This document shows, piece by piece, positions 34,269 to 63,409 of a stretch of 64,000 nucleotides of DNA. The position numbers were made by a program, and so were the translations under genes. Origin of the DNA: Oscillatoriales cyanobacterium M59_W2019_021. GTDB taxonomy: Bacteria > Cyanobacteriota > Cyanobacteriia > Cyanobacteriales > Geitlerinemataceae. Within the stretch, counting starts at the first letter, position 1. Every line of letters begins with the position of its first letter. The notes under the pieces were generated by a model, which saw only the letters and a program-made list of their open reading frames with translations, was not told the DNA's origin and searched no databases. The stretch spans positions 1 to 64,000 of the forward strand of contig DVED01000071.1 of the NCBI GenBank assembly GCA_015295945.1, in the 5' to 3' direction.

Positions 34269-35240
34269 TTATCCATCAGATTCTAAGTGAGAAGCGGACA
34301 TTTTTTCGTGTTGACGGCGACTCGCGCGAGCGCGACGATAGCCGTAAATCCCGAGCAGAACGATCGCCAAATACGGACTGAAACTCAACGCCCAAATTCC
34401 CATTTTTAACAGCGTAAAAGTTAGATTTTTAACCGCACTGGTGGCATCTTCCCAAGTTTCTTTAAATTGCAAAGGAACGGGGCGCTTGAGTTCGGGGGTG
34501 CTGGCGGCAGGGGCTTCCAAATTTAAATAAATTGTCGCGTAAGAAATTTGAGTTTGCAAATTTTTTTGCTGCGCGTCAATTTGCTCGATCGACTGGCGAA
34601 TCGTACTCAATTCTCGGGCAACATTGAGCACTTCCGCCACCGATCCCGATCGTTGTTCCATAATCTTCAGCAACAGTTCTTCCTGTTTCCGCAGGTTGCG
34701 CAATCGTGCCTCGAGATCGACCAATCGATCGGAAACATCTTCCGCCGTTCGCGATTGACTTTTCACCGTTCCCATCTGGGCAAATTGTTGTAAAGTCGCT
34801 TCCAATTTGCTTTGGGGAATGCGAATTTGCATCGACACCGTTTGCAGTCCATTGCGACTGTCCGAGCGATTGTCTTGGAGATCGATAAAATAGCCTTGCT
34901 GCTGTTTGATAATTACCGACACTGCCGAGACAACTTCATCGCTGGATTCGACAATTAAGGTCAGTGCCGCTTTTTGGATTAAGTTGGGAATGGGTGCGGG
35001 GACTTCAAGAGTGGGATTTTCAACGGCTGTACTTCCCGATGCGTCGGCAGGTGCTTCGGCAGATTGCTCCGGAGCAGCGGTTTTTGCCAGTTCTTGCATA
35101 TTTTGAACGGAGACGGGTTGGTTGCCGCAACTGGCTAAGGCGAGGCAAGAGACGAAACCGAGAACGCACCAACGGATCGATACTCCCAAAGGGAGTCGCT
35201 TACGCGATCGGGCGTTAGAATTGCAGTGAGAGGAAATCAT
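34269..35240 (-). CDS. DUF4349 domain-containing lipoprotein
   Basis: Lipobox CLALASCG; LTLIVESSDEVVSAVSVIIKQQQGYFIDLQ, SQSRTAEDVSDRLVDLEARLRNLRKQEELLLKIMEQ, C-terminal TM. Confidence 0.9.
   Translation of the reverse strand: MISSHCNSNARSRKRLPLGVSIRWCVLGFVSCLALASCGNQPVSVQNMQELAKTAAPEQSAEAPADASGSTAVENPTLEVPAPIPNLIQKAALTLIVESSDEVVSAVSVIIKQQQGYFIDLQDNRSDSRNGLQTVSMQIRIPQSKLEATLQQFAQMGTVKSQSRTAEDVSDRLVDLEARLRNLRKQEELLLKIMEQRSGSVAEVLNVARELSTIRQSIEQIDAQQKNLQTQISYATIYLNLEAPAASTPELKRPVPLQFKETWEDATSAVKNLTFTLLKMGIWALSFSPYLAIVLLGIYGYRRARASRRQHEKMSASHLESDG
35178..35210. repeat. Coding palindromic repeat, copy A
   Basis: cgatactcccaaagggagtcgcttacgcgatcg; 32/33 identical to the reverse complement of 36976-37008. 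Confidence 0.85.
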
Positions 35241-35420
35241 AATTCATGCCATGGGGTATGTTGCCTCTAGGGTATCTTCGAGATGGAGAGATTGATCGAC
35301 CGATACCAAAATTGAAACGGAAAATTGGGTAATGGGTAATGGGTAATTGGAGATACGAGCTTTCCTAACGCTCGTCAATTTCTAACCTCTCCTGCAACTC
35401 CTGCAACTCCTTCTTAAAAA

Positions 35421-36260
35421 ATGTTACTAGAATTAGCCATTGGCGATGCTTACGGTGCGGGATTCGAGTTTGCCGACGAGATGTTATCGGCGAACGATTT
35501 GAGCGGTTACGTGCAGCATCCGCGATCGTTTTTTCAAGCGGAACGGTATACCGACGATACTCAAATGAGTTTGGCAATTGCCGAAACTATCGTGAATCGG
35601 CAACCGTGGACGGAACGGGTTTTGGCGGAGAATTTCCTCAAGGTTTTTAAACGCGATCCCCGCAAAGGTTACGCCAAGCGGATGTACCAATACTTGCAAG
35701 AAACCGAGGATGCAGAATCTTTTATTAAAAATGTAACGTGGTCGAGCGATGCGAGCGGTGCGGCAATGAGATCGGCACCCATTGGCGTTTTTTCAACGAT
35801 CGATCGGGTCATGGCTGCCAGCCAACTTCAAGCCGCTATTACCCATAAATCGAAAGATGGGATTAATGCTTCAGTGGCGGCAGCATTAATGGCACACTAT
35901 TTCATCTACAATTTGGGCAACAAGCAACAGTTAGGTGAATTTTTAGATACTTACGTTTGCGGTTACCATTGGATGCGACCGCAAACCGAAAGAGTTAGCA
36001 TGCAAGGGATTTGTTGCGTTCGTGCGGCGGTAACGGCAATAATAAAAGGCGATTCCCTCAGTCAGATTCTCCGAGATTGCGTGGCTTTTGGAGGAGATGT
36101 AGATACAGTGGCGGCGATCGCTTTGGCGGCTGCTTCGTGCAGTTCGGAAATCGAATCGGATTTGCCGGAAGTGTTAATTTCGGGTTTAGAAAATGAAGCC
36201 TACGGACGCGATTATTTAGTCCAACTCGATCGGCAATTGATGGGTTTGGTTAGGGGTTAG
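35421..36260 (+). CDS. ADP-ribosylglycohydrolase (DraG-like) family protein
   Basis: LLELAIGDAYGAGFEF, YTDDTQMSLAIAETIV, GGDVDTVAAIALAAA metal-binding motifs. Confidence 0.93.
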   Translation: MLLELAIGDAYGAGFEFADEMLSANDLSGYVQHPRSFFQAERYTDDTQMSLAIAETIVNRQPWTERVLAENFLKVFKRDPRKGYAKRMYQYLQETEDAESFIKNVTWSSDASGAAMRSAPIGVFSTIDRVMAASQLQAAITHKSKDGINASVAAALMAHYFIYNLGNKQQLGEFLDTYVCGYHWMRPQTERVSMQGICCVRAAVTAIIKGDSLSQILRDCVAFGGDVDTVAAIALAAASCSSEIESDLPEVLISGLENEAYGRDYLVQLDRQLMGLVRG

Positions 36261-36302
36261 GGGTTTATCGCCAATAACGAATGACCCATGACCCATGACG
36301 AT

Positions 36303-37118
36303 TTAGAGTCGATCGGAAATTGCGACGATTCCACCAACCTCTACTTTCGCAACCACTCCCGTTTTGGTATGACCGAAGTGTTTTTTCAGGAGGGATAAAA
36401 GCGGTAAATCCCGCTCTCCAGTTGTGGGATGAACTTCGATATTATTGCAGCGACCGATGGGGGCAGAAATCGAAATTTGTGCCGTGCCTAACGATCGCCT
36501 CTGACCGATCCATTCAAATTCTTCCCACGGCTTCGTCCCTTCAAAAACCACATTGGGACGAAAGCGGCGAACGTCGATATCGCAACCCGCTACTTCGGAA
36601 ATCGCATCGAGAGTGGCTCGACCGATGAGGGAAATGTGGACCCGATGGCGATCGGGATATCGCGTATTTCCCGCCAAATCCCCCACCAATCGTACCGCTC
36701 CCGGCTGGGGGTGTCGTGCCGATTCGGTCGGGGTTAAACCTGCCAGATAGTCGGTAAAGAAGGCATCAATGCGATCGCGATCGGTTTGCAGGCTGGCAGC
36801 CAAGACCTCAACCCCATTGTGGGAAACGATCAGGCGATCGCTCTGTTCCTCGTAACGGCAATCCAACGCCGCCAAATCGGGCCAATCGTTCTGTACTGCA
36901 AAGTGCTGTTTCGACATCCACGGCACGATGCGTCCCGGTTCTGCGGCGGCATCGACAAACATTAACGCCAACGCTCGATCTCGTAAGCGACTCCCTTTGG
37001 GAGTATCGCCCCGCATCCCCAACCCCGGCTCTAACACCGCTCGATCAATCTCCTGCGGGGTCAATCCCTTAATCGGATGAATCCATAATTGGGTCACGAT
37101 GGGTTGGTCGTTGGTCAT
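36303..37118 (-). CDS. MOSC domain-containing protein
   Basis: VTQLWIHPIKGLTPQEIDRAVLEPGLGMRGD, FRPNVVFEGTKPWEEFEW; start set at MTNDQPIVTQ. Confidence 0.9.
   Translation of the reverse strand: MTNDQPIVTQLWIHPIKGLTPQEIDRAVLEPGLGMRGDTPKGSRLRDRALALMFVDAAAEPGRIVPWMSKQHFAVQNDWPDLAALDCRYEEQSDRLIVSHNGVEVLAASLQTDRDRIDAFFTDYLAGLTPTESARHPQPGAVRLVGDLAGNTRYPDRHRVHISLIGRATLDAISEVAGCDIDVRRFRPNVVFEGTKPWEEFEWIGQRRSLGTAQISISAPIGRCNNIEVHPTTGERDLPLLSLLKKHFGHTKTGVVAKVEVGGIVAISDRL
36976..37008. repeat. Coding palindromic repeat, copy B
   Basis: cgatctcgtaagcgactccctttgggagtatcg inside the MOSC gene. Confidence 0.85.
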
Positions 37119-37235
37119 TTGTCGTTGGTCATTGGTCATTGGTCATTTGGGGTTTGGGGTTGGTAATTGGCAAACATCTTCTCCCTCTGCTTCCCCTGCC
37201 TCCCTTGCTTCCCCTGCCTCCCTTGCTTCCCCTGC
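37100..37235. repeat. Short tandem repeat cluster
   Basis: (ggtcattggtcattt)n, ggggtttggggttgg, (ttcccctgcctcccttgc)n. Confidence 0.85.
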
Positions 37236-63342: not shown

Positions 63343-63409
63343 TTTCTCCCCGATTACCAATTACCGTTCGCGCAGCGACTCCGCAGGAGTATTACCGATT
63401 ACCCTTCAG

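Follow-up and report, generated by a model that had tools for sequence, protein, structure and literature searches.

A very small SDR5-like repeat, probably mobile, lies in frame within genes of an Oscillatoriales cyanobacterium

Introduction

Two nearly identical short repeats found in two genes of Oscillatoriales cyanobacterium M59_W2019_021 belong, with high confidence, to a very small mobile repeat that resembles the cyanobacterial small dispersed repeat SDR5 and can sit in frame inside genes. The insertion, its target, the insert lengths, the gaps in orthologues and the corresponding empty sites are all observed directly. Here we describe the copies in the window (the whole stretch of 64,000 nucleotides that was analysed), the anatomy and targets of the repeat across the genome, and its relation to known elements.

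Empty sites in orthologues document the repeat as among the smallest DNA units that apparently move and are tolerated inside conserved enzymes; its hosts include the usually essential genes folC and coaE. Knowledge of the empty target, of the product and of the recipient genes makes the spread of repeats shorter than 30 nt testable. The copies also display one way in which proteins can acquire new short tandem peptide repeats.

The repeat in the window

The copies in the window and their host genes are as follows; in target sequences, here and below, a slash marks the point of insertion.

34269..35240, minus strand: DUF4349 lipoprotein gene, 323 aa, host of copy 1 (Pfam PF14257, 1.1e-49)
35180..35206, plus strand: 27-nt element copy 1, ATACTCCCAAAGGGAGTCGCTTACGCG, flanked by TCG (35177-35179) and ATCG (35207-35210)
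36303..37139, minus strand: MOSC-domain protein gene, 278 aa, host of copy 2 (PF03473, 3.7e-11; 16 orthologues)
36980..37006, minus strand: 27-nt element copy 2, within the MOSC gene; splits the target GGCG/ATCG and adds nine residues, TPKGSRLRD
63369..63392, minus strand: 24-nt subfamily copy, ATACTCCTGCGGAGTCGCTGCGCG, in a region without a long ORF; degenerate target GTA/AACG

Direct comparison of positions 35178-35210 with the reverse complement of 36976-37008 gives one mismatch in 33, in opposite orientation, just as a sequence-only reading of this DNA had stated; a random model expects about 6e-9 such 33-mer pairs in the window. That reading treated all 33 bp as a palindromic repeat. The repeat is real, but the insert proper is 27 bp in both copies—the outer CGAT and ATCG are the split target—and only the inner 15 bp form a true palindrome. 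The related sequence it placed near 63369-63392 is indeed there, as a copy of the 24-nt subfamily. HIP1 is abundant, with 54 exact octamers in the window, and Rfam gave no matches around the DUF4349 and MOSC genes.

Copy 1 makes up codons ~12-20 of the DUF4349 gene, ahead of the signal-peptide core. The MOSC-gene product also matches PF03476 (4.8e-5, slightly short of the Pfam cut-off); against solved structures it gives a weak, partial match to mARC1, insufficient to place the insert in the fold.

Copy number, anatomy and target site

The 212-contig draft, a single genome of the species, holds ~200 copies that fall into a 27-nt and a 24-nt class, counting only copies within two mismatches of the consensus. 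The supposition of a dispersed palindromic repeat, present in genes and read in different frames, was correct: a genome search recovered the 18-nt core of the 27-nt class, ACTCCCAAAGGGAGTCGC, at 47 places in 4.99 Mb with up to two mismatches (reversed control, 1), and in-gene copies occur in several frames and on both strands. The supposition also withstood the refuting condition set for it: the MOSC orthologues do without the segment, and the genome has many further copies. The shorter-stem core of the 24-nt class, ATACTCC-NNN-GGAGTCGC, occurs at 166 places genome-wide with up to two mismatches (control, 6), and a covariance model built from the 47 copies finds at least 143 places, with 150 candidates scored. 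We extracted ~3 kb around most copies and parsed 186 of them.

In its 27-nt form the mobile unit is built from the hairpin ACTCCC-AAA-GGGAGT, the adjoining hairpin CGC-TTAC-GCG and an AT that is repeated. More generally, the unit reads ATACTCC(C)-NNN-(G)GGAGT followed by CGC-TNC or TNAC-GCG, with GCG as the left flank and ATCG as the right flank. Among well-parsed copies, the short class comprises inserts of 24 nt (n=97) and 25 nt (n=4), and the long class inserts of 27 nt (n=52), 28 nt (n=10), 29 nt (n=2) and 26 nt (n=1). The first loop varies greatly, taking 28 triplet forms across 104 copies of the 24-nt class, and the stems are almost fixed—a contrast sharpened by how the copies were found. 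Together, the target arms and the element fold into an outer stem bearing the two adjacent hairpins (folding z -1.3 to -3.2). Stem covariation yielded no compensatory changes within the family, so the case for a role of the fold comes from the folding energies and the variable loop.

Excising the unit in silico rejoins GCG/ATCG, the HIP1 core. The target consensus reconstructed from 166 sites is GGGCGATCG(A/C); 32 of these sites are exact HIP1 and 106 lie within one mismatch of it. The two upstream target positions carry G in 64% and 61% of cases, compared with ~32-35% beside all CGATCG sites. On the right-hand side of the insert CGATCG is regenerated, and tandem copies follow one another at exact 24- or 27-nt steps; these copies run head-to-tail and not as inverted dimers.

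Two side observations concern the extracted loci. Ten copies of the element, at loci L103, L106, L107, L122, L151, L163, L166, L182 and L187, contain a second 24-nt unit, always at the same point. This second unit likewise has a layout of two hairpins (CGTCC-NNN-GGACG, GGC-TAC-GCC) and is absent elsewhere among the extracted loci. Separately, contigs C22 (L094:1-100) and C168 (L172:1480-1583) end within tandem arrays of the 27-nt element, and these arrays are the probable cause of the assembly breaks.

Empty sites in orthologues

Alignment of the MOSC protein with its orthologues from the family and order bears on the earlier suggestion that the protein is longer by about 10 aa. It is extended, though by exactly nine residues: all 16 orthologues lack TPKGSRLRD and nothing else at this place, and in all 16 the junction carries the empty target GGCGATCG, read as GGC GAT CGn. 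These alignments make an in-frame insertion in the MOSC gene well supported. The same reading had proposed an in-frame insertion in the DUF4349 gene, where no alignment with orthologues is possible over the first ~25 residues; because the copy sits in this unalignable lipoprotein start, insertion is only likely here. A TTG within the copy is a possible start codon, and with the unaligned N-terminus it suggests that the copy may lie in the leader or 5' region.

For the other hosts we used a 28-segment protein query, then fetched and aligned the sequences of relatives. Eleven further genes, folC, coaE, nnr and selO among them, show an exact 8- or 9-residue gap in at least one orthologue: EamA (4/4), LOG-like (4/4), GH3 (3/3), NnrD (3/4), trypsin-TPR (2/2), SelO (3/3), FolC (4/4), CbiX (2/3), a response regulator (2/3), PcyA (1/4) and CoaE (1/4). 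The comparison was uninformative for RluE and for a few hosts of low conservation, where the gaps differed in size or the alignment was unclear. A 24-nt insert also lies at codon ~423 of an extracted host gene (L119:229-1683) that matches the CRISPR ring nuclease Csx3 below threshold.

Selection by length, location and frame

Selection acts on the copies by length, location and frame. Gene and intergenic calls were made with a home-made codon-usage scorer, trained on long ORFs and requiring an open frame, which classed the simple copies as 56 in genes, 75 intergenic and 37 ambiguous. The length is a multiple of three in 56/56 intragenic copies versus 63/74 intergenic ones (Fisher p=0.002); for this test the copy at L185, parsed automatically as 31 nt, was set to 24 by eye, and one unclear intergenic parse was excluded. 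Empty GGCGATCG sites number 428 in genes and 96 between genes, against 55 and 69 copies (odds ratio 0.18, p=6e-16). This depletion of copies in genes relative to empty sites indicates that insertions in genes are mostly purged.

Reading frame matters as well: the GAT-CGC frame is used by 45/60 in-gene copies versus 140/428 empty sites (p=2e-11), a signal somewhat inflated by the scorer's open-frame requirement. The frame bias is also partly conditioning, because one alternative frame has a stop with common loops; after allowing for that stop (an estimated ~41% expected), p is ~1e-7. In the favoured frames the repeat encodes hydrophilic peptides, repeats an Asp codon and keeps both sides of the interrupted motif. 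The added peptide is D-TPKGSRLR-D or, in the other orientation, R-VSDSLWEY-R.

Comparison with known elements

The closest known element is SDR5, and the repeat is best described as SDR5-like; the likeness is one of insertion geometry. SDR5 inserts between nucleotides 3 and 4 of HIP1, GCGATCGC (PMC4390886). Here the joined flanks are GCG/ATCG, an equivalent position within the duplicated GCGAT, and it is this shared geometry that makes SDR5-like the best name. SDRs and the present repeat are both dispersed units tens of nucleotides long. The work of Elhai et al. 2008 (Genome Res 18:1484) is said to give SDR sizes of 21-27 nt (a range that takes in 24 and 27 nt), a common fold in SDR4/5/6 and nested insertions, and reportedly confines SDR5 to exact HIP1 octamers. 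The targets here, in contrast, follow GGGCGATCG(A/C), with exact HIP1 in the 32/166 noted above and an extra upstream GG preference; since that exclusivity is absent and SDR5 is likened by description, not sequence, we do not claim strict SDR5 membership. A further difference from SDR5 as described is the large in-frame intragenic set documented here. We found no literature report of the repeat inside proteins in a search of mostly open literature, so subscription papers, the defining SDR paper included, may already describe part of the intragenic set.

The repeat was also compared with other families. HIP1 is an over-represented octamer that is said to spread by substitutions and is not an inserted element; in relaxed form it is the insertion target of the repeat. 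The Rickettsia palindromic elements, to which the repeat was first compared, are likewise palindromic and in frame in unrelated genes, in several frames. They are mostly ~100-150 nt long and rickettsial, with no known targeting of HIP1, whereas the repeat here is 24 or 27 nt long and cyanobacterial with a HIP1-like target. The functional likeness holds, but the two have different lengths, target sites and host groups, and the SDR5-like kind is much closer; the Rickettsia elements are an analogy, not kin. A MITE has the terminal inverted repeats of its cognate transposase. In the copies parsed here, only adjacent internal hairpins are seen.

RAYT genes are associated with REP families of the GTAG type. 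REP and REPIN elements are dispersed 20-40 bp hairpins, sometimes intragenic, served by RAYT transposases (PMC3116915, PMC3733652), and the hairpin of REP elements bears a terminal GTAG or CGTC (PMC3733652). The present repeat is also short, hairpin-forming, dispersed and sometimes intragenic; however, its hairpin is preceded by CGAT with no GTAG or CGTC tag, no inverted dimers are seen and no copy lies in the extracted flanks of the three Y1 genes.

Proposed mechanism and rival explanations

We propose that the element has been copied ~200 times into sites resembling GGGCG/ATCG, each insertion duplicating AT, or up to GCGAT. Such duplication would regenerate CGATCG on the right and so make a further tandem copy possible. 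With a unit of 24 or 27 nt, an in-gene insertion lengthens the reading frame by 8 or 9 codons and leaves it unshifted, and the favoured frame repeats the GAT codon, so that the MOSC motif keeps 'GD' on its left and 'DR' on its right. Mobility would act in trans via a folded single-strand intermediate, either ssDNA or RNA (an RNA intermediate was reportedly proposed earlier for SDRs), in which the internal CGC may pair either with the left-target GCG or with the one at the right end. The folded strand would then be copied into CGATCG sites by an enzyme or by repair, and most copies would be selfish, roughly neutral passengers. We identified no mobiliser, whether a transposase, a reverse transcriptase or something else; the genome has three Y1_Tnp genes, with no copies in their extracted flanks. 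A more specific proposal, which we advance tentatively and hold less likely than not, is a site-specific unit moved by an enzyme that reads the two-hairpin strand. Its length, fixed at 24 or 27 nt, would pre-adapt it to life inside genes, and re-insertion into the regenerated CGATCG would create new tandem peptide repeats in ordinary enzymes.

Two rivals offer other routes of movement. The repeat may be a REP-type element handled on ssDNA by a Y1 (RAYT/IS200-like) HUH transposase, with GCGAT as a tag 5' of the hairpin and insertion 3' of that tag; it is an alternative to the SDR5-like explanation only as regards the mobiliser, which that explanation leaves unspecified. The layout of tag plus hairpin, the three Y1_Tnp genes and a foldable single strand speak for it, but the tag is neither GTAG nor CGTC, the tandem copies lack inverted dimers and the extracted flanks of the three Y1 genes are empty of copies, and we consider it unlikely. 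We are similarly doubtful of an enzyme-free origin, by template switching or hairpin-mediated mispriming at CGATCG (at nicks or in methylation-linked repair) with tandems formed by slippage. Regeneration of CGATCG, arrays with exact 24/27-nt periods and a first loop far more variable than the stems would all suit such a process; against it, stem and tail are near letter-perfect at unlinked loci and in distant genera, which would need a source sequence copied accurately over long distances.

That positive selection keeps the in-gene copies, as protein motifs with a function or as regulatory hairpins, is very improbable, even though many hosts are housekeeping enzymes: it is the DNA and not the peptide that is conserved, in several frames and on both strands, and the copies are depleted in genes and absent from orthologues. 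We give next to no credence to an origin by chance, by assembly artefact or by convergence among HIP1-rich sequences. It could draw on the abundance of HIP1 and the 212-contig draft, but the genome-wide counts refute it, with hardly any hits in the reversed controls, and other genomes carry the element too. The SDR5-like mobile repeat stays our preferred explanation.

Distribution among cyanobacteria

Exact matches to CGATACTCC-N3-5-GGAGTCGC occur in 9/388 cyanobacterial genomes: 107 in the present genome (G000), 21 in G034, 15 in G213, 7 in G139, 4 in G335 and single matches in the others. The other genomes of the same family that were searched gave no matches, either in this survey or in a 13-genome search, the latter with the 27-nt form only.

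Tandem growth inside a protein is seen in an oxidoreductase ORF of G213, where six tandem 24-mers (L258:1479-1622) add 48 residues, DTPRESLR-(DTPQESLR)5. Five orthologues lack these 48 residues, one of them on the window's own contig (G000:C52:73868-75364). Nostocales genomes (Plectonema, Tolypothrix and two Calothrix) have the element at corresponding loci, as single or as tandem copies. At what is seemingly the same ORF position in Plectonema and Tolypothrix (L047/L049), one genus has two tandem copies and the other has one, a natural record of addition or loss.
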